NCBI GenBank assembly: GCA_029287915.1
Contig: JARFQE010000055.1
Span: 1 to 64,000, forward strand
Source of the DNA: Arenicellales bacterium
Lineage (GTDB): Bacteria > Pseudomonadota > Gammaproteobacteria > BMS3Bbin11
Reading direction: 5' to 3'
DNA: 64,000 nucleotides
In this document: piece by piece, positions 18,160-27,623 of the stretch
Layout of the letters: each line of letters opens with the position of its first letter
Numbering within the stretch: position 1 is the stretch's first letter
The notes under the pieces: model-generated
Told to the model about the DNA's origin: nothing
Databases searched by the model: none
The model's input: only the letters and a program-made list of their open reading frames with translations
Program-made: the position numbers and the translations under genes

Positions 18160-18195
18160 TGAATTATGAATATTAAATTGATTATTCATCATTCA
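18160..18195. promoter_or_regulatory. Inverted repeat before tetR operon (candidate operator)
   Basis: Two 12-base arms, tgaattatgaat (18160-18171) and attcatcattca (18184-18195), match as an inverted repeat at 11 of 12 positions across a 12-base AT-rich spacer. It lies 45 bases before the TetR start, where an autoregulatory operator would be expected. Each arm is itself a seven-base-spaced repeat of tgaat/attca, so it could instead belong to the heptad repeats nearby. Confidence 0.5.
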
Positions 18196-18239
18196 GGAGA
18201 TATTCTATCAATCTGTTTAATTATGTCTCTGGAGAAGGA

Positions 18240-18842
18240 ATGATCGAGCAAGAGCAGGAAGCCGAAATGATTAGGGACGAGATCCTGAACGCAGCGCATC
18301 AGCGTTTTCGGACCTTTGGTTACGGCAAAACTACCATGGCGGAGATTGCTGAAGATGTGAATATGTCAGCAGCCAATCTGTACCGGTATTTTCATAACAA
18401 GCAGGACATTGCTGCTGCATGTGCAGATCAGTGCATGGCAGATCTGCACACATTGCTTAAAAATGTCATAAACCTGCCAGATCTAAATGCGACCCAGAGA
18501 CTCCACATGTTCGTTCAGACCGCAATGCGCTACTACTATGAGATGAGTCATGACACACCCCGACTCAATGAACTGGTGGAAAGTATTGCGCACAATCATC
18601 CTCGCATTATCCATCAGAGAAACCAGAAGATCGAGAGTCTGATGGCTGCAATCCTTAAGCAGGGAATTGAGGAAGATGAATTTCAGGTTGATGATGTCTC
18701 TACAACGGCAAGGGCTGTCACAAAGGCTATAGTGATGTTCTCGACGCCAATTTTTATGCCGCTGTACACACTCGAGCAATTCGAAAAAATGGCTGTTGAT
18801 GTTGTCGCGCTGATTATCAAAGGTCTCAGAAAAACAAACTAA
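18240..18842 (+). CDS. TetR/AcrR-family transcription regulator
   Basis: 200 residues. The N-terminal helix-turn-helix (about 12-58) reads ILNAAHQRFRTFGYGKTTMA, then AEDVNMSAANLYRYFHNKQD, the classical TetR pattern. The remainder is an all-helical ligand-binding and dimer domain with no recognised ligand. ATG 18240 has CTGGAGAAGG upstream. It is the first gene of a run with an MMPL transporter, a LolA-like protein and a barrel, 18 bases before the transporter. It is therefore probably their local repressor, responding to a substrate or related lipid. Confidence 0.93.
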   Translation: MIEQEQEAEMIRDEILNAAHQRFRTFGYGKTTMAEIAEDVNMSAANLYRYFHNKQDIAAACADQCMADLHTLLKNVINLPDLNATQRLHMFVQTAMRYYYEMSHDTPRLNELVESIAHNHPRIIHQRNQKIESLMAAILKQGIEEDEFQVDDVSTTARAVTKAIVMFSTPIFMPLYTLEQFEKMAVDVVALIIKGLRKTN

Positions 18843-18860
18843 CAACACGGGGCATTACTA

Positions 18861-21188
18861 ATGCACGAATTTGAGAGGAGATTTGGAGAACTGGTTATCC
18901 AGTATCGCTGGCTGGTTATCATCGCTTGTCTGCTGCTAGTGGGTTTCATGGCCAGCGGTGCAAAACATCTATCGATGACCACTAACTACAGGGTCTTTTT
19001 CAGTGAAGACAACCCACAGCGAATGGCTTTTGAAGCACTGGAAAATACCTATACGAAAAATGATAACGTGATGTTCGTTATTGCCCCTGAGGATGGAAAT
19101 GTATTTTCAAAAAAGGTTATGGAGGCGGTTTATGAACTCACTGAAAAGTCCTGGCAGGTACCCTACTCATCACGTGTCGACTCGCTGACTAATTACCAGC
19201 ATACCGAGGCAGAGGGTGATGATCTACTGGTCGAGGATCTCGTTGAAGACCCTGCCCTGTTGACTGAAGAGCGACTCGCCTATATCAGGCAGGTGGCCGT
19301 CAATGAGCCTCTGCTAAGACATCGTCTGGTCTCGGACCGCGCACATGTCACGGCGGTGAATGTCACTGTGCAATTACCCGGAATCAATGAAGCAACGGAA
19401 ACACCGGAAGTGGTGGCTTTTACGCGCAATCTCGCAGCAGAAATTGAAGCAAAATATCCTTTTATCAAAATATACATGACCGGCATGGTTATGATGAACA
19501 ACAGCTTCTCAGAAGCTTCCCAGAATGACATGAAAACACTGGTGCCATTAAGTTTTCTGATCATGATGGTGATGTTGCTGTTGATGCTACGGGGTTTTGC
19601 GGGAACTGCACTGACCATGGTTGTTATAATCCTGTCCGTTATTGCCGCGATGGGGGCGGGTGGTCATATCGGATATCCGATAACTCCACCAAGCGCGACA
19701 GCACCAACAATCATCCTGACGGTAGCAATCGCAAATTCCGTGCATGTGCTGGTGACTTTTTATCACTATATGCGCGAAGGCATGGACAAGATCGCAGCGA
19801 TGATAGAAAGCATGCGGGTAAATCTGCAGCCGGTATTCCTGACCAGCCTGACAACATCGATCGGATTCATGAGTATGAACTTTTCGGATGTGCCGCCCTT
19901 TAACCATCTTGGCAATATGGTGGCAATCGGTGTGATGATGTCATTTGTTCTGGCTGTAACTTTCCTGCCGGCAGTAATCAGCCTGTTACCGGTCAAAGTA
20001 CGTGTTCATCATGAAAAAGGTGACAGGCTGATGCTATCTATCGGCAATTTTGTCGTCAACAACAGACGTAAGCTGTTGCCTGGCATGACTCTGCTGGTAG
20101 TTGTGCTGGTATCATTCCTGCCGCGCAATGAACTCAATGACGTATTTCTAGAGTATTTCGATGAAACGATCCAGTTTCGCAACGACACGGATTTTACAGT
20201 CAAAAACCTGACTGGCATGTACCTGATCGATTTTTCAGTTGAGTCTGCAGAGCCAGGCGGTATCAGTAATCCGGAATTCCTGCAGGAGGTTGAGGACTTC
20301 GCTAACTGGTTCAGAGAACAGCCGGAAACTTTACATGTCAATGTGTTCACCGACATTATGAAGCGACTTAACAGGAACCTGCATGGTGATAACGATGCTA
20401 TGTATAAACTCCCTGATGAGAGAAACCTCTCTGCCCAGTACTTGTTGATGTACGAGATGTCGCTGCCGTATGGCCTTGATCTTAATAACCAGATCAATGT
20501 CGATAAATCGGCAACGCGCATGGTTGTTACCTTGCGCACCCTGTCAACAAACCAAATGATTGCACTCGAGAAGCGATCCAGCCAGTGGCTGCAAGAGAAT
20601 GCAGAATTCATCAAGGCAGCGGCAGCCAGCGGTCCGACAATGATGTTCGCACACATCGGCAAACGGAACATAATTAGTATGCTTGCTGGCACGACAATCG
20701 CTTTGATAATGATTTCAATGATCCTGATTATTGCCCTCAGGTCTTTCAAACTGGGTCTTACAAGTATGGTACCGAACCTGGTTCCCGCTGCGATGGGTTT
20801 TGGTATCTGGGGTATGCTGGTCGGTGAGGTCGGGCTTGCGTTATCGGTCGTTACCAGCATGACACTTGGGATCGTGGTTGATGATACAGTTCACTTTATG
20901 AGCAAGTATCAACGTGCACGAAGAGAAAGCGGCCTGAATTCCGAACAGGCTGTCCGCTATGCATTCACCAGTGTCGGCAGGGCACTGTTGACGACTTCGG
21001 TAGTGCTGATTGCCGGTTTCCTGGTGCTGGCACTGTCATCATTCAAACTGAATTCCGGTATGGGTCTGCTAACCGCACTGGTTATTGCACTGGCGCTTAT
21101 CGCAGACTTCCTGCTGTTACCACCGTTGCTAATGAAACTAGAGGAAAAATCCAATGAAAAAGACACCGCTGTTGCTCCTGCTTCTTAG
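18861..21188 (+). CDS. MMPL/RND-superfamily transporter
   Basis: 775 residues with the duplicated RND layout: helix 1 (about 17-36), a large periplasmic loop (about 40-220), five helices with a sterol-sensing-like domain (about 225-390), helix 7 (about 405-420), a second loop, and five helices (about 615-760). Family marks are IILTVAIANSVHVLVTFYHY in the first half and GIVVDDTVHFMSKYQRARRE in the second, which hold the proton-relay acidic residues. MMPL and HpnN-type proteins move lipids or other hydrophobic molecules to the outer membrane. The gene overlaps the next one by 35 bases. The cargo cannot be read from sequence. No adaptor of the AcrA type is present; the LolA-like protein probably replaces it. 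Confidence 0.93.
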   Translation: MHEFERRFGELVIQYRWLVIIACLLLVGFMASGAKHLSMTTNYRVFFSEDNPQRMAFEALENTYTKNDNVMFVIAPEDGNVFSKKVMEAVYELTEKSWQVPYSSRVDSLTNYQHTEAEGDDLLVEDLVEDPALLTEERLAYIRQVAVNEPLLRHRLVSDRAHVTAVNVTVQLPGINEATETPEVVAFTRNLAAEIEAKYPFIKIYMTGMVMMNNSFSEASQNDMKTLVPLSFLIMMVMLLLMLRGFAGTALTMVVIILSVIAAMGAGGHIGYPITPPSATAPTIILTVAIANSVHVLVTFYHYMREGMDKIAAMIESMRVNLQPVFLTSLTTSIGFMSMNFSDVPPFNHLGNMVAIGVMMSFVLAVTFLPAVISLLPVKVRVHHEKGDRLMLSIGNFVVNNRRKLLPGMTLLVVVLVSFLPRNELNDVFLEYFDETIQFRNDTDFTVKNLTGMYLIDFSVESAEPGGISNPEFLQEVEDFANWFREQPETLHVNVFTDIMKRLNRNLHGDNDAMYKLPDERNLSAQYLLMYEMSLPYGLDLNNQINVDKSATRMVVTLRTLSTNQMIALEKRSSQWLQENAEFIKAAAASGPTMMFAHIGKRNIISMLAGTTIALIMISMILIIALRSFKLGLTSMVPNLVPAAMGFGIWGMLVGEVGLALSVVTSMTLGIVVDDTVHFMSKYQRARRESGLNSEQAVRYAFTSVGRALLTTSVVLIAGFLVLALSSFKLNSGMGLLTALVIALALIADFLLLPPLLMKLEEKSNEKDTAVAPAS

Positions 21189-21936
21189 TATTACTACTTC
21201 ATATGCCTGGGCATTAACTGCAGAGGAAAAAGGCCTGCAAATAGCACAGAAGGCAGACAGGCTGGATAGCGGGTGGGGCGATCAGAAACAGTCCATGGAA
21301 ATGATACTTCGCAATAAACAGGGCCAGGAAAGTCGCCGGCAGATTCGCGGCAGATCACTGGAAGTTATTGGTGATGGCGATAAGGCGTTATCTATTTTCG
21401 ATTCCCCGGCTGATGTCAAAGGTACTGCCTTTCTAAGTTTTACCCATGTCAACGAACCCGATGACCAGTGGCTTTATCTTCCGGCTTTAAAGAGGGTAAA
21501 ACGAATTGCATCGAAGAATAAGTCAGGACCGTTTATGGGCAGTGAATTTGCATTTGAGGATATGTCATCCCAGGAGGTGGATAAATACACTTACAAATGG
21601 CTACGTGATGAACAGCTTGATGGTAAGGATGTTTATGTTATCGAGCGGGTACCGGTAGACAAGCATTCTGGCTATACCCGGCAGATTGTATGGGGTGACA
21701 GGGAAATATATCATCCATTGAAAGTCGAATTTTATGATCGCAAGAATGCACTGCTCAAAACTCTTGTATTGTTTGATTACAAGCAGTACCTGGGCAAATA
21801 CTGGCGGCCTGATCGGATGGAGATGACAAATCACCAGAACGGAAAAAGTACTACACTCTTATTTACTGATTACGTATTCAATAATGGTTTTAGTGACCGT
21901 GATTTTGACCGCAATTCACTTAAACGGGCCCGTTGA
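21154..21936 (+). CDS. LolA-like outer-membrane lipoprotein-sorting family protein
   Basis: 260 residues with a cleavable signal peptide (about 1-20, SYAWA-LTAEE). The body has the half-open beta-barrel pattern of the family annotated 'outer membrane lipoprotein-sorting protein': QSMEMILRNKQGQESRRQIR, SIFDSPADVKGTAFL, DDQWLYLPALKRVKRI and GPFMGSEFAFEDM. These proteins often pair with MMPL transporters. A periplasmic carrier for a hydrophobic cargo is the natural model. The gene begins inside the 3' end of the transporter gene (35-base overlap) and its stop overlaps the next start (TGATG at 21934), so all three are coupled. Confidence 0.9.
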   Translation: MKKTPLLLLLLSITTSYAWALTAEEKGLQIAQKADRLDSGWGDQKQSMEMILRNKQGQESRRQIRGRSLEVIGDGDKALSIFDSPADVKGTAFLSFTHVNEPDDQWLYLPALKRVKRIASKNKSGPFMGSEFAFEDMSSQEVDKYTYKWLRDEQLDGKDVYVIERVPVDKHSGYTRQIVWGDREIYHPLKVEFYDRKNALLKTLVLFDYKQYLGKYWRPDRMEMTNHQNGKSTTLLFTDYVFNNGFSDRDFDRNSLKRAR

Positions 21937-23123
21937 TGAGAAAAGGTCTGGTTGCATCGGCAGTATTTCTACTGGTGATTTCATCACCGCTACAGGCCGT
22001 TAGCTGGCGTGGCAATGTAACGGTACAGGAAAGATTATTCTTTCAGGATCCAGCAGACCCAAGGCAGCATGGAAATAATTTCTCAATTGCTGCACAGCCT
22101 GAGATGTATCACGAGTGGGATGAGGGTAAACAGACATTCACTTTCATTCCCTTCGCACGGCTAGACCAGGGTGATAATAAGCGGACTCATGCTGATATCA
22201 GGGAACTCGCGTGGTCCTATATCGCGCGAGACTATGAATGGACAGTAGGCATCAGCAAGGTCTACTGGGGCGTTACCGAAGCAAGACATATAGTCGATAT
22301 CATCAACCAGACTGATCTGGTCGAAGAGCTTGACCAGGAAGATAAGCTCGGCCAGCCTATGATCAATCTTACCCTGATACGCGACTGGGGAAACATCGAT
22401 CTTTTCGTCCTGCCCGGTTTTCGTGAACGAACATTCGCAGGTGTCAAAGGACGGCCGCGCATTATTCCTCGGGTTGAAAAAAACCTGACCAGCTATGAGT
22501 CATCGCAGGAAGACAAACATGTCGATGCTGCGGTCAGGTGGTCACATGTCGTTGGCGACATGGATATCGGACTGTCCTGGTTCCATGGAACGAGCAGGGA
22601 GCCGATTTTGTCGCCGGCTGAGTACAATGGTGAGATTGTCCTCGCACCTTTCTACCAGATCATCGATCAGGCTGGACTGGACCTGCAGCTGACAAAAGGG
22701 AACTGGCTATGGAAGCTCGAAGCCATAAACCTCGATGGCAATTATGTCAGTTATCGACAGGCAACCGGTGGCTTCGAGTATACGTTTTACGGCATTGCAG
22801 AAACTGCTACTGACATCGGCCTGGTGGTTGAATACCTATATGATTCACGGGGTGAGCTGGCAACAACGCCATTCGAGGATGATTTCCTTACCGGACTGAG
22901 ATTGACGCTGAATGATGAACAGAGCACGGATGCGCTGCTTGGCGTGATCAAGGACAAGCATGACGACAGTTACCTGATCAGCCTTGAAGGCAGCAGACGG
23001 ATAGGCGATAACTGGAAGCTGTCAATCCAGGGTAGTAAATTCCTTGTCGATGGACTGGACCAGTCACTGAAGTCTTTTGCGGAGGATGACTTTCTACAGG
23101 TTGAGCTGGGGTATTATTTCTGA
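21936..23123 (+). CDS. Outer-membrane beta-barrel protein of the MMPL operon
   Basis: 395 residues from ATG 21936 (a TTG codon precedes it in frame). It has a signal peptide (about 1-22, SSPLQAVSW), then alternating polar/hydrophobic strands rich in Trp, Tyr and Asp, and the C-terminal motif VELGYYF whose final Phe is the usual BAM recognition residue. Strand-like segments include WTVGISKVYWGVTEARHIVD and FEYTFYGIAETATDIGLVVE. It is a predicted 16- or 18-stranded barrel, in the manner of DUF1302-type proteins that accompany RND/LolA-like sets. It would be the outer-membrane exit or receptor of the system. I cannot assign a named family. Confidence 0.8.
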   Translation: MRKGLVASAVFLLVISSPLQAVSWRGNVTVQERLFFQDPADPRQHGNNFSIAAQPEMYHEWDEGKQTFTFIPFARLDQGDNKRTHADIRELAWSYIARDYEWTVGISKVYWGVTEARHIVDIINQTDLVEELDQEDKLGQPMINLTLIRDWGNIDLFVLPGFRERTFAGVKGRPRIIPRVEKNLTSYESSQEDKHVDAAVRWSHVVGDMDIGLSWFHGTSREPILSPAEYNGEIVLAPFYQIIDQAGLDLQLTKGNWLWKLEAINLDGNYVSYRQATGGFEYTFYGIAETATDIGLVVEYLYDSRGELATTPFEDDFLTGLRLTLNDEQSTDALLGVIKDKHDDSYLISLEGSRRIGDNWKLSIQGSKFLVDGLDQSLKSFAEDDFLQVELGYYF

Positions 23124-23282: not shown

Positions 23283-23301
23283 TAAGAATCGAGGATTCTT
23301 A
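23283..23301 (-). other. Hairpin over the stop codon of the sulfur-globule-like gene
   Basis: The arms taagaatc (23283-23290) and gattctta (23294-23301) are perfect inverted repeats around gag. On the minus strand the stem includes the TAA stop codon of the 23299-23808 gene. It may protect the 3' end of an abundant mRNA. Confidence 0.45.
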
Positions 23302-23808
23302 TTTCTTTTCTGCTGGTGCAGCAGGTGCAGCAGGTGCAACTGGGGCAACTGGTGCGCCGTAGCCGTAAGGTGCGCCGTAGCCGTAAGGTGCGCCGTAGCC
23401 ATAACCGTAAGGTGAGCCATAACGGTTGCCACCATAGTAGTTGCCACGGTAGTCGCCACGGTAGTCACTGTAGCCACGGCCATAAGCGTCACTATAACCA
23501 GAGCCATAACCAGAACCATAACCACGGCCACGTCCACGACCACGTCCACGACCTTTGCCTTTAAAGCTCATGTTGAATTCGCCATCGACGTCGCCGTCCA
23601 TGTCGCTGTCGAGGTCGCCAGTACCATATCCACGGCCTCTGCTATAGCCAGAGCCATAACCGGAACCGTCACCACGGCCATAACCGTCGCCATAGCCATA
23701 ACCAGAGCCAGAGCCATAACCATCATCATAACCTCTACCCCACTGTGCAGTAGAAGCTGCAGACATGCTCATCAGAGCAGCGATTGATACAATCTGTACG
23801 AGTTTCAT
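23299..23808 (-). CDS. Sulfur-globule-like Gly/Tyr-rich secreted protein
   Basis: 169 residues. A signal peptide (about 1-21, [11 protein letters not shown]) is followed by a low-complexity mature part: GYG/GRG repeats, an acidic segment [18 protein letters not shown] (about 67-84), a GRG run, then Tyr-rich GYGAPY repeats. The tail is Ala-Pro-Val-rich ([18 protein letters not shown]). This composition, with the D-rich / N-M-S-F / GRG order and the Pro-Ala tail, fits the 'sulfur globule family' envelope proteins of sulfur-oxidising Gammaproteobacteria, which coat periplasmic sulfur deposits. The start has GGAGATTTTCTT upstream. A perfect AT-rich palindrome about 100 bases upstream may be a control site. 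A generic Gly-rich cell-surface protein is the alternative. Confidence 0.68.
23351..23404 (-). repeat. Three 18-base tandem repeats inside the sulfur-globule-like gene
   Basis: Three copies of an 18-base unit (23351-23368, 23369-23386, 23387-23404) differ at one base in the last. They encode the GYGAPY repeat of the protein. Copy number may vary between strains through slippage. Confidence 0.85.
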
Positions 23809-24829: not shown

Positions 24830-26227
24830 TCATGCCTTAATCCGTAACAGGATATCCTCTCTGGCGCTCTCGATTATCGAATCCTTGTCCATACCTGCCA
24901 GGATTTCCTCGGTAACACGTTTGGCACCACCTTCACCCCACGCTTTTCCCTGCTCCAGATAGCGTTCAGTTATTTGTCCAACCAGATAGGTGCTGTAATA
25001 GGCAATAGCGCCCTGACTGCTTGCAGTCAATATCGTGGACAAGCCAGCACTACCGAGTTTCAGCAGACTTGAGGCAAGGTGAACCGTCCATACTGCTCCC
25101 ATCATGGCAGCCAGCTGGGCAAAGATTGCTGCGACAAGTTTACCTGACTCACGTCGGCTCATGGGCAGGTCATAGACCCTGGACAGGTGATAGACCATTG
25201 CACTATCCAGTGCAGCAGCTGCAACGAGGTCAGCGACGGGAATAGGATTGGCTGCGACACTAACCCCCTTGGCGATGCAATAGTAGCGTATTACTTTTTC
25301 TGCCAGATCCCGGCGAGTTTCCAGTATCCGAGTTGAAATTTTATCCGTAACATGGGAGGCGAACAGGCTGGCATTGAGGGCAGCAAGACTGCGACCATCC
25401 TGTTCGATGATTTGCCACAGGCGACTGACCAGTTTTGTTATATCGGGCTCAACTTCACGAACTGTTTCAGTTTCATGTCCTGAATGATCAATCTCAATCA
25501 GGGTCTGTGCAGGTGGTGCAGCAGAGGCAGATAGAATGTTCTCCTGCTGCACGATGCCAGCAGTATGCCGGGCTAGAGATGACAACAGCTCATTTTGTTC
25601 TTGCCGTGTATACCGGTCAGTTTTGTTTAGTACCAGAAGCACGACGCTGGATTGCTTTTGCAGCGTCTTCAGGCTGTTGAGCTCGCTTTGCGTCAGGTCT
25701 CCATCGACAACAAAAAGGATCAGATCGGCCTGTGCAGCGGCTTCAATAGCGAGTTGTTCTCTCTGCTCGCCATCGGCCTCATCCAGGCCGGGAGTATCAA
25801 TCAGTAATACGCCTCCGCTGTCATAGGATTGCCATGTGCTGCGATCTACCACGCGCGTTTCACCGTGTAACGGACTGGTAGTGAAGACATTGCTGCCTAG
25901 TAGTGCATTTAGAAGTGAAGACTTACCAACACTGACCCTTCCCAAAGCGGCGATATGAATTTCATTGTTTTCAATCTTGTCCAGCAGGCTCTGTACGTTC
26001 TGATACTCCGCTGCCAGATCATCACGTACAGCTTGAGGAATATGCTCATCTTGCAGTAGCCGAGAAAGGCTGTCACGGGCGATAGCAAGGTGATGGTCAT
26101 CTGTTTGTCGGGTCTCTGCTACGTCATCATACTCTGTTGACACAACAGATTTATTTTTCCTGTTTTTCTTTGGCCTCCATGACCAGCCGGAGAATGTCGC
26201 CGGTACGTTTTTCCAGTTGATCACCAA
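24830..26227 (-). CDS. Dynamin/Era-like GTPase with DUF697 domain (second of pair)
   Basis: 465 residues as written. The GTPase domain has GRVSVGKSS (P-loop, about 96-104), DTPGLDEA (switch II) and NKTDRY (G4). After it (about 295-420) comes a DUF697-like helical domain with NPIPVADLVAAAALDSAM, thought to be membrane-associated. Relatives include the YcjX/YcjF-linked and Era-like GTPases of unknown cellular role. The ATG at 26227 lies 77 bases inside the upstream GTPase gene; an in-frame GTG at 26143, just after the upstream stop and with AGGA upstream, is a credible alternative start. The tandem arrangement suggests one hetero-oligomeric system. Confidence 0.88.
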   Translation of the reverse strand: MVINWKNVPATFSGWSWRPKKNRKNKSVVSTEYDDVAETRQTDDHHLAIARDSLSRLLQDEHIPQAVRDDLAAEYQNVQSLLDKIENNEIHIAALGRVSVGKSSLLNALLGSNVFTTSPLHGETRVVDRSTWQSYDSGGVLLIDTPGLDEADGEQREQLAIEAAAQADLILFVVDGDLTQSELNSLKTLQKQSSVVLLVLNKTDRYTRQEQNELLSSLARHTAGIVQQENILSASAAPPAQTLIEIDHSGHETETVREVEPDITKLVSRLWQIIEQDGRSLAALNASLFASHVTDKISTRILETRRDLAEKVIRYYCIAKGVSVAANPIPVADLVAAAALDSAMVYHLSRVYDLPMSRRESGKLVAAIFAQLAAMMGAVWTVHLASSLLKLGSAGLSTILTASSQGAIAYYSTYLVGQITERYLEQGKAWGEGGAKRVTEEILAGMDKDSIIESAREDILLRIKA

Positions 26228-27623
26228 GGTTCTCCGTGAAACGATTTATTGTCGGAAGAGTTGCCAGTTCACCGCGGCTGGAAAGGGTCTCATTGAGGCT
26301 GCGTCCCAGTGCGTCGAATATCATGCCATAGGTTACCGCATGCAGGGTACCACCGGCCAGTGTACCAATGCCGGGAAAGGCCTTCATCGCATTCCCGAGC
26401 ACGGCCATGATAAGAGCTAGATGGCGATTAAGGCGGGATTGACCGAGTTTAAGCAGGCGGTCAATTTCAAGTTGACTGACTGGAACCTCATATAATGAGC
26501 AGAGGCTTTTTACCAGGCTGATGCCAAGCGCACCCTGAATAAGAATATCAGTGCCGGGGCTAATTGCTGCCATTGCTCCAATCACGGCACTGCGAGTATG
26601 GTTGCGAACCAGTGACTGTCCTTGCTCTATTCGCTGACGCAGTTCAGCTTCATCGAGAGTGCGGGCAGCCAGGGTGAAGACAGCAGAGTCACGTAGTTGT
26701 TCCAATCTTTCAGGATCTCTATCAATGCGTCGTTGCAGGGCGCGGGCCAGCTCCCCGATATCCGGCGCTATGCTTCTAATTTCCGTGGTTTCAGTACCGT
26801 CTGGATGCTTTATCACAAGTTTTTTTTCAGCTTTGGTACTGATGGCAACTACTGCAATGTCCTTGATTTCCTTCGTGCGTTCACGAAGTTGATCAAGAAT
26901 TTGTCTGCGTTCCTCATTGCTGTACCAGTCAGTTTTATTCAGCGCCAAAATTAGCGGTTTATTAAGATCTGCAAGAAGCTTAAGTTCATTCAATTGCTGA
27001 CGTGTCAGATCCGCATTACAAAGATAAATGACCAAATGCGCCCGGATTGCCTCTGTGCGAGCAGCTTCACTGAGTCCATGATTGCCCGCATCCTGAAAGC
27101 CGGGCATATCGATAACAATGACTTCATCACCGGACGGTGTTATCCAGTGGTACTCGATAGTCTCTCTGGTTGTGCCACCAGTGACTTCGGATCGTGCCTG
27201 GGCATTGGGTAGCAGGCTATTGATCAGACTGCTTTTACCGGTACTGATGGTGCCGGCAAGCGCAATGTAGAGTTTGCCCGTTTGCCGTCTGAGCCCTAAT
27301 TTGCCTAATTCAACTTTTGCAGATTCAATATCAATTCCAGTTTCTTCAGCTTTCTCTATTCGCTGCTGTAGACTGGATTCATCTATGTTCTCTTTTTGTA
27401 TGCCCGATTTTTTTACAGGACGTAGTAGTTTCCAGAGTATGACCGCACTGGCGCTGCTAAAGACTAGCAATATAAATGCGAACAGGCTGCTGATATACCA
27501 TGGCGCTGTCTGCAGTCTGTCCCAGAGCGAGAGCAAGGTGTCACCCGCCATGCCTGTGATGACCAGCAGCAGCAGGAACAACAGGACAACAGCTGTGGCC
27601 AGTAGATAGCGAAGTGTTTTCAT
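26151..27623 (-). CDS. Membrane-anchored GTPase with DUF697 domain (first of pair)
   Basis: 490 residues. Two transmembrane helices (about 5-25 and 43-65) precede a short coiled coil (SLQQRIEKAEETGIDIESAK). The GTPase domain shows GTISTGKSS (about 124-132), DMPGFQDAG and LNKTDWY. A DUF697-like C-terminal domain (about 330-470) has AISPGTDILIQGALGISLVK and a Gly-rich segment. The architecture (membrane hairpin, GTPase, helical domain) resembles bacterial dynamin-like or stress-linked GTPases. It overlaps the second GTPase gene. The short spacer to the divergent DUF2333 gene (117 bases) must hold both promoters. Confidence 0.88.
   Translation of the reverse strand: MKTLRYLLATAVVLLFLLLLVITGMAGDTLLSLWDRLQTAPWYISSLFAFILLVFSSASAVILWKLLRPVKKSGIQKENIDESSLQQRIEKAEETGIDIESAKVELGKLGLRRQTGKLYIALAGTISTGKSSLINSLLPNAQARSEVTGGTTRETIEYHWITPSGDEVIVIDMPGFQDAGNHGLSEAARTEAIRAHLVIYLCNADLTRQQLNELKLLADLNKPLILALNKTDWYSNEERRQILDQLRERTKEIKDIAVVAISTKAEKKLVIKHPDGTETTEIRSIAPDIGELARALQRRIDRDPERLEQLRDSAVFTLAARTLDEAELRQRIEQGQSLVRNHTRSAVIGAMAAISPGTDILIQGALGISLVKSLCSLYEVPVSQLEIDRLLKLGQSRLNRHLALIMAVLGNAMKAFPGIGTLAGGTLHAVTYGMIFDALGRSLNETLSSRGELATLPTINRFTENLGDQLEKRTGDILRLVMEAKEKQEK

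Follow-up and report, generated by a model that had tools for sequence, protein, structure and literature searches.

What do a pump, a periplasmic carrier and an outer-membrane barrel encoded side by side behind a TetR-type regulator transport, and in which direction? The question is raised by a locus at positions 18,160 to 23,123 of a 64,000-nucleotide stretch of DNA from an Arenicellales bacterium (assembly GCA_029287915.1, contig JARFQE010000055.1, positions 1 to 64,000). This whole stretch is referred to below as the window. We estimate a probability of about two in three that the locus encodes a relay of three components under TetR repression, by which a hydrophobic molecule leaves the inner membrane and reaches the outer membrane or passes through it. 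An earlier interpretation made from the letters alone (the sequence-only reading) had proposed such a hand-over from pump to carrier to pore. The idea gains support from a conserved gene order, from natural pump-carrier fusions that are followed by a barrel gene, and from relatives of the carrier that are encoded beside ABC transporters or PqiABC.

In the mechanism that we propose, the MMPL pump, an RND-type protein driven by the proton gradient, would extract the molecule from the inner membrane. It would then be bound in the cleft of the LolA-like protein and ferried through the periplasm to the 18-stranded barrel, which would release it either into the outer membrane or to its far side. TetR would sit on one palindrome before its own gene, and a ligand, most simply the cargo itself, would permit expression of the operon. 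A single path through all three proteins and the binding of TetR to the palindrome are both inferences.

Pump and carrier are encoded by overlapping genes

The gene for the 775-residue pump (18861-21188, + strand) is followed by genes for a 260-residue carrier with an N-terminal hydrophobic, signal-like stretch (21154-21936, +) and a 395-residue outer-membrane barrel (21936-23123, +). Open reading frame coordinates, Pfam searches and a model of the barrel bear out the gene assignments of the sequence-only reading, including that of tetR, as well as the overlaps that it reported: 35 bases between pump and carrier (21154-21188) and 1 base between carrier and barrel (21936). The barrel gene was taken to start at the ATG at 21936; the open reading frame list has a TTG at 21933.

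The pump belongs to the MMPL family (PF03176, E 9.2e-39; 133.7 bits against a Pfam cut-off of 20.5). It is also related to NCBIfam model TIGR00921 (HAE3), but at 173.6 bits it scores under the cut-off of 351.9 and is not filed under that model. Residues D674 and H678 in the region of transmembrane helix 10 and H295 in the region of helix 4 are invariant in all 59 aligned pumps, the helix numbers being our own assignment. Simple hydropathy of the window pump gives 10 segments, compared to the 12 transmembrane helices expected of the class. Neither a membrane-fusion adaptor nor a TolC-type channel is present among the Pfam matches of the operon, and thus the system is not a tripartite HAE1 efflux pump of the AcrAB-TolC type.

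The carrier is a member of the PF17131 LolA_like family (E 4.8e-68; 228.9 bits, cut-off 30) and scores above the threshold for DUF1329 as well (43.8 bits versus 23.1). Its closest solved relative is the Vibrio parahaemolyticus structure 3bk5, to which it is similar in sequence (E 1.4e-96) and in fold: the AlphaFold2 model of the carrier, which has a mean predicted local distance difference test score (pLDDT) of 88.4, superposes on 3bk5 with a Z score of 34.2 and a root-mean-square deviation (rmsd) of 1.3 over 235 aligned residues. Close fits were also obtained with LolA3 of Porphyromonas gingivalis (9tp6; Z 30.1, rmsd 1.9, 234 aligned) and with the DUF1329 protein 4z48 (Z 29.9), compared to Z scores of 11-14 for most LolA/LolB structures. 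3bk5 is still nearer to the carrier of another MMPL-LolA-barrel locus (L136, E 4.6e-128). P. gingivalis LolA3 is described in an extract of its report as having a hydrophobic groove (PMC13103446). By contrast, a similar extract attributes to LolA3 of Flavobacterium johnsoniae, which we compare by description only, a site of more polar character, and reports that its deletion has no phenotype (PMC11885536).

The carrier is not matched by PF03548, the profile of canonical LolA. At an E threshold of 0.001, PF03548 finds a single protein in the genome, on another contig (C37). Because the genome thus holds a separate canonical LolA, the carrier is not the shuttle of the Lol pathway. In an alignment of 65 carriers, made up of the window protein and 64 of 68 frames identified as carriers, the mean column identity is 63%.

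Gene order is conserved, and some pumps and carriers are fused

We collected 70 related loci from one scan of named genomes. By tblastn, the carrier gene lies directly upstream of the barrel gene in 70 of 70 loci, and an MMPL gene precedes both in 64 of 70, an association beyond chance. Overlap hid the carrier from the first neighbour lists for L037, L044 and L075, and tblastn settled these cases. Four of the six loci that lack a pump match are on contigs that start in or just before the carrier gene (L016, L040, L047 and L062). The remaining two, L012 and L035, have upstream sequence without an MMPL match and are either true exceptions or assembly faults. A fragment of an MMPL N-terminus is found at the far end of the L012 contig (L012:7818-7991), which may itself reflect an assembly fault. 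Record titles among the 70 loci include Arenicellales, Neptuniibacter, Neptunomonas, Electrothrix, Desulfocapsa, Opitutaceae and Pelagibacteraceae. Within the window's own family the barrel is present in six of eight genomes, and the two that lack it are 60% and 75% complete.

Pump and carrier are also found as one protein. In a listing of LolA-like matches that covers 244 genomes of another order, 11 are single polypeptides that combine MMPL and LolA domains. Ten of these frames are 1050-1110 residues long, and one, at a contig edge, has 736 residues. In all 11 the MMPL domain precedes the LolA domain, and the next gene encodes a barrel of the bridging family described below. Most of the fusion joints, examined by eye, keep a hydrophobic stretch that resembles a signal peptide. 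The strongest 19-residue hydropathy segment falls in the joint in five of the 11 proteins and in the last helix of the pump in the other six. A hydrophobic stretch at the joint would place the LolA domain in the periplasm. Of all the evidence, these fusions speak most strongly for a joint function of pump and carrier.

The barrel is probably a distant relative of DUF1302 proteins

The third gene has no Pfam match even at an E value of 10, and nothing was found for it in NCBIfam, PHROGs or a sequence search of the PDB. When 68 barrel relatives were scanned against Pfam, scattered weak matches to 15 families were obtained; the best was to the PelB barrel (0.0029), and DUF1302 was not among them. 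An alignment of 68 rows, from which L065 and L016 (partial or broken) and also L067 were left out, was used for an AlphaFold2 model with a pLDDT of 91.2 and a predicted template-modelling score of 0.86. The model has about 18 strands by reading of its DSSP string. The C-terminus is ELGYYF, and the final Phe, already remarked upon in the sequence-only reading, is at least 90% conserved in the 68 rows.

Comparison with PDB folds puts the model in the company of other 18-stranded barrels. It superposes almost equally well (VIA-align) on the channel OccD3 (Z 23.2, rmsd 3.2, 297 aligned) and on the alginate exporter AlgE (Z 22.8, rmsd 3.2, 299 aligned). Since Occ channels admit small polar solutes and AlgE exports, the fold cannot separate uptake from export. 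Unusually, the most conserved long element of the barrel is a loop at residues 108-139 (consensus KVFWGVTESQHLVDVINQTD...), with a conservation of 0.80 compared to a strand mean of 0.60. Counting strands of the model from a periplasmic N-terminus, this loop would lie on the outer side of the barrel. It is similar to the DUF1302 signature.

The sequence-only reading could name no family for the barrel. Direct Pfam searches agree with this, but a comparison of profiles connects the barrel to DUF1302 through a bridging family of 22 barrels, mostly of 420-480 residues. With hhalign, the window barrel family matches the bridging family at 99.7% (E 6.6e-26) over 363 columns and its full length. The bridging family in turn matches DUF1302 (PF06980) at 97.3% (1.9e-11) and barrels from ABC-type cassettes at 99.5% and 98.5%. 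The DUF1302 Pfam cut-off of 23.2 is exceeded by one barrel of the bridging family (53.9 bits) and by one from an ABC cassette (26.1 bits); the ABC-cassette barrel of the window genome scores below it, at 16.6 bits. A distant relationship between the window barrel and DUF1302, by way of the bridging family, is probable, though not proven.

A candidate operator is conserved upstream of tetR

The 200-residue regulator (18240-18842, +) has both the TetR_N domain (PF00440, 7.2e-13) and TetR_C_27 (PF17935, 1.9e-14). Conservation upstream of its gene points to a candidate TetR operator, the near-perfect palindrome TGAATATTAAATTGATTATTCA at 18167-18188 (+). This element is kept upstream of tetR in L007, L009, L010 and L013 and is degenerate in L015, and the remaining spacer drifts. 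The palindrome occurs at a single site per genome in four of the eight genomes of the window's family, where a control with the reversed pattern found 0 sites, and the chance expectation within the window is 0.01. It is missing from G002, which has no tetR, and from G001, which has only a decayed tetR remnant. The other two family genomes without it, G004 and G005, are incomplete assemblies.

The description of the operon as TetR-controlled is supported because the palindrome, a putative binding site, is conserved, present in single copy, and lost where tetR is decayed or absent. Other TetR-type genes occupy the same place in many relatives. TetR looks like a local, self-regulating switch that would act on the candidate palindrome.

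Upstream of tetR lies a gene for an HPP-family membrane protein (PF04982; 17188-18096, +). An HPP-family gene accompanies tetR in L007 and L010, and both genes are gone in G002.

Carrier relatives are found beside other motors and other exits

The window genome encodes two sister cassettes. The first, on contig C78 (C78:11000-24000, L102), contains a LolA_like protein, two MacB/FtsX permeases, an ABC ATPase and a related, DUF1302-like barrel. The second, on contig C77 (C77:10000-22000, L086), has the order DUF1302-DUF1329-YCF48-MMPL, which is that of AmeABCD. The statement in the sequence-only reading that no ABC component is needed is consequently true of this operon but not of its sister on C78, in which an ABC transporter takes the place of the pump.

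We surveyed 80 further PF17131 loci, the best of the matches listed down to about 82 bits, excluding those of the window genome itself and two others. Motors and barrels were counted if encoded on the same strand within five places. Under this rule, 44 of the 80 loci have an MMPL gene (34 with a barrel and 10 without a detected barrel) and 25 have an ABC permease (19 with a barrel and six without a detected one), L146 being scored as having no barrel because its barrel frame is overlapped. Two loci have a barrel only, and none of the 80 has both motors.

Eight of the 80 loci encode a larger MMPL protein of about 900 residues, and PqiA, PqiB and PqiC are encoded nearby in each of the eight (identified with our own profiles in all eight loci, and with Pfam in three). 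Six of these (L201, L206 and L209-L212) have the one-strand row PqiA-PqiB-PqiC-LolA-MMPL; L200 and L202 carry these genes too, though not all on one strand. PqiABC is described in an extract of the literature as a putative phospholipid transport system (PMC10897342). In three other loci, L196-L198, a LolA_like protein is encoded with one FtsX-type permease and an ATPase beside a 420-475-residue protein that ends in Phe. Matched by none of the barrel profiles, this protein is possibly a further type of barrel.

These arrangements suggest a wider view, which we advance tentatively and at somewhat less than even odds. PF17131 proteins may be hub carriers of a general and as yet unnamed class of trans-envelope routes for hydrophobic molecules, loaded by a proton-driven MMPL pump or an ATP-driven MacB/FtsX-type motor and unloaded into a DUF1302-related barrel or a PqiABC (MCE) tunnel. 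A genome could hold several such routes, each with its own cargo, and the window would represent the barrel-and-MMPL form. Searches of one open-licence library turned up parts of this view, though not all of it. The apparent sharing of one carrier family among different motors and exits is the most interesting aspect of these findings, and the one most likely to surprise specialists. With members of this family next to two motor types and two exit types, the hand-over of lipid from pump to pore by a LolA-like shuttle becomes directly testable, and the solved carrier structure 3bk5 is already available for this question.

Described systems with a similar plan

The published systems discussed here are known to us from extracts of the cited papers. 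AmeABCD of Castellaniella defragrans is reported to combine an HAE3-type RND pump, a LolA-superfamily periplasmic protein (DUF1329) and an outer-membrane barrel (DUF1302) in one operon, and its deletion to lower monoterpene tolerance and to affect Nile Red accumulation (PMC6394551). The window likewise encodes a pump, a DUF1329/LolA-superfamily protein and a barrel in one operon, with a barrel that is only distantly related. However, it lacks a YCF48-like AmeC: its three genes overlap, with nothing between them, and the YCF48 protein found in the genome is that of the C77 cassette. Gene order also differs, the carrier is of the shorter PF17131 type, and the barrel has 395 residues rather than 605 and no direct DUF1302 match. 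The window system is a three-protein variant near AmeABCD and not a member, because it has no AmeC and its barrel fails the DUF1302 test.

The plan of the 11 fusions recurs in Thalassolituus oleivorans, which is known to us by description only. TOL_3187 is reported to contain MMPL and LolA-like domains, and TOL_3188, the porin that follows, to be a barrel without conserved domains; both are induced by the alkane n-C28 (PMC6304351). Pump and carrier are thus one protein in T. oleivorans and two proteins from overlapping genes in the window.

In P. gingivalis PG1181-PG1178 and in Prevotella sets, the extracts list a TetR regulator, an MMPL protein, a lipoprotein-sorting protein and a hypothetical protein together (PMC10434189, PMC10470040, PMC13227078). 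These sets differ in their Bacteroidota hosts and in their regulation by hemin and iron, and PG1178 is compared by description only. With excess hemin, expression of the P. gingivalis set is reported to show log2 changes between -7.4 and -8.1 (PMC10470040), and without iron to rise 13- to 136-fold (PMC10434189). Borrelia BBJ23-BBJ29, as described, has a MacB-like ABC motor and an Omp85-family barrel, a plan nearer to that of the C78 cassette (PMC13078400).

If the relay works as inferred, it is small and widespread and occurs in streamlined ocean bacteria. The published descriptions would extend it to a hydrocarbon degrader and to oral bacteria, in which it ranks with the operons that respond most strongly to hemin.

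Direction of transport and nature of the cargo

Outward transport of a hydrophobic molecule appears to be the best reading of these comparisons. The relay of the sequence-only reading has a sound basis in its architecture, and its function is plausible. RND and MacB/FtsX-type motors act as exporters or extractors in known systems. We propose outward flux because both of the interchangeable motors, MMPL and MacB/FtsX-type, are of such types. A hydrophobic cargo is suggested by the LolA fold, the monoterpene tolerance conferred by AmeABCD, the alkane response of T. oleivorans and the link to PqiABC.

Several observations weigh against this reading. The operon is not linked to any cargo, lipid or biosynthesis gene, and the operator-pattern search found no second site in the family genomes, so there is no regulon that would point to a cargo. 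In fold, the barrel is as close to the Occ uptake channels as to AlgE. Directly compared, the window barrel family matches DUF1302 only weakly (10.6%), and a Porin_4 control gave 86.9% (110 columns) against the bridging family and 49% (51 N-terminal columns) against the window barrel family. Position 292 of the pump is Asp in 37 of the 59 aligned sequences and Asn in the window. By the counting rule, motor and barrel are both absent from nine of the 80 PF17131 loci; L202 falls in this class because the pump of its PqiABC set is on the other strand. Moreover, the T. oleivorans authors, in the extract, propose alkane uptake and delivery by the barrel, not export (PMC6304351). The hemin and iron response of the P. 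gingivalis set would not obviously fit the export of a hydrocarbon or a lipid.

Within export, we considered whether the operon encodes general solvent or drug efflux, which would act on any toxic hydrophobic compound, as AmeABCD does, and not on a specific lipid. This is a special case of outward transport and shares in its probability. A TetR with a single candidate self-operator is typical of inducible efflux, a cassette in AmeABCD order is present in the same genome, and AmeABCD itself is reported to act on monoterpenes and Nile Red (PMC6394551). The high conservation of the carrier and of barrel loop 108-139 suggests a defined ligand instead, and carriage by the streamlined Pelagibacteraceae would be odd for an accessory efflux pump. 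We regard general efflux as less likely than not.

Transport in the opposite direction is an unlikely alternative. In such an uptake or retrograde route, the barrel would admit a hydrophobic compound such as an alkane, a porphyrin or a fatty acid, the LolA-like protein would carry it across the periplasm, and the pump would clear surplus or drive the cycle. This would agree with the nearness of the barrel to Occ channels and, in the extracts, with the expression of TOL_3187 and TOL_3188 on n-C28 (PMC6304351) and the strong induction of PG1178-PG1181 under hemin or iron limitation, which is the behavior of uptake systems (PMC10434189, PMC10470040). On the other hand, the reported consequence of AmeABCD deletion is a tolerance defect, as expected of export (PMC6394551). 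The set is also not accompanied by a substrate-binding protein or an importer. Both kinds of motor, as noted above, argue for export or extraction.

A further and very improbable alternative gives the LolA-like protein a dedicated chaperone role, in lipoprotein delivery or in assembly of the neighboring barrel, and leaves the barrel as the sole transporter to the outside: PF17131 is named an outer membrane lipoprotein-sorting protein and the carrier fold is related to LolA/LolB, but the canonical LolA is encoded separately on C37, BAM normally assembles barrels without such a partner, and the pump-carrier fusions and PqiABC rows would be left unexplained. A chaperone role is among those proposed for TOL_3187/TOL_3188, according to the extract (PMC6304351).

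Genomic context

On the 5' side, the HPP-family gene is accompanied by genes for quinolinate synthase and citrate synthase, both named from reading their translations. We considered these neighbors and the sulphur globule protein described below as clues to the cargo, and dropped them since relatives outside the genus have other neighbors. An AMP-binding enzyme is encoded near the set in nine of the 70 loci, of which seven are from Pelagibacteraceae and have it on the opposite strand; we judged this clue too weak. Scans for promoters (10 versus 8.3 expected) and terminators (4 versus 3.7 expected) gave chance-level results.

Two features lie downstream on the - strand. Two GTPase-like membrane proteins, 465 and 490 residues long and encoded next to each other in tandem (24830-27623), were recognized by reading translations. 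Between this pair and the operon, right after the barrel gene, is a gene for a glycine- and tyrosine-rich, secreted-looking protein (23299-23808) that matches the sulphur globule protein family PF17228 (44.6 bits versus a cut-off of 26.7). A gene of like size and place is found in L007, L008 and L010. The PF17228 match suggests that the host is a sulphur oxidizer.

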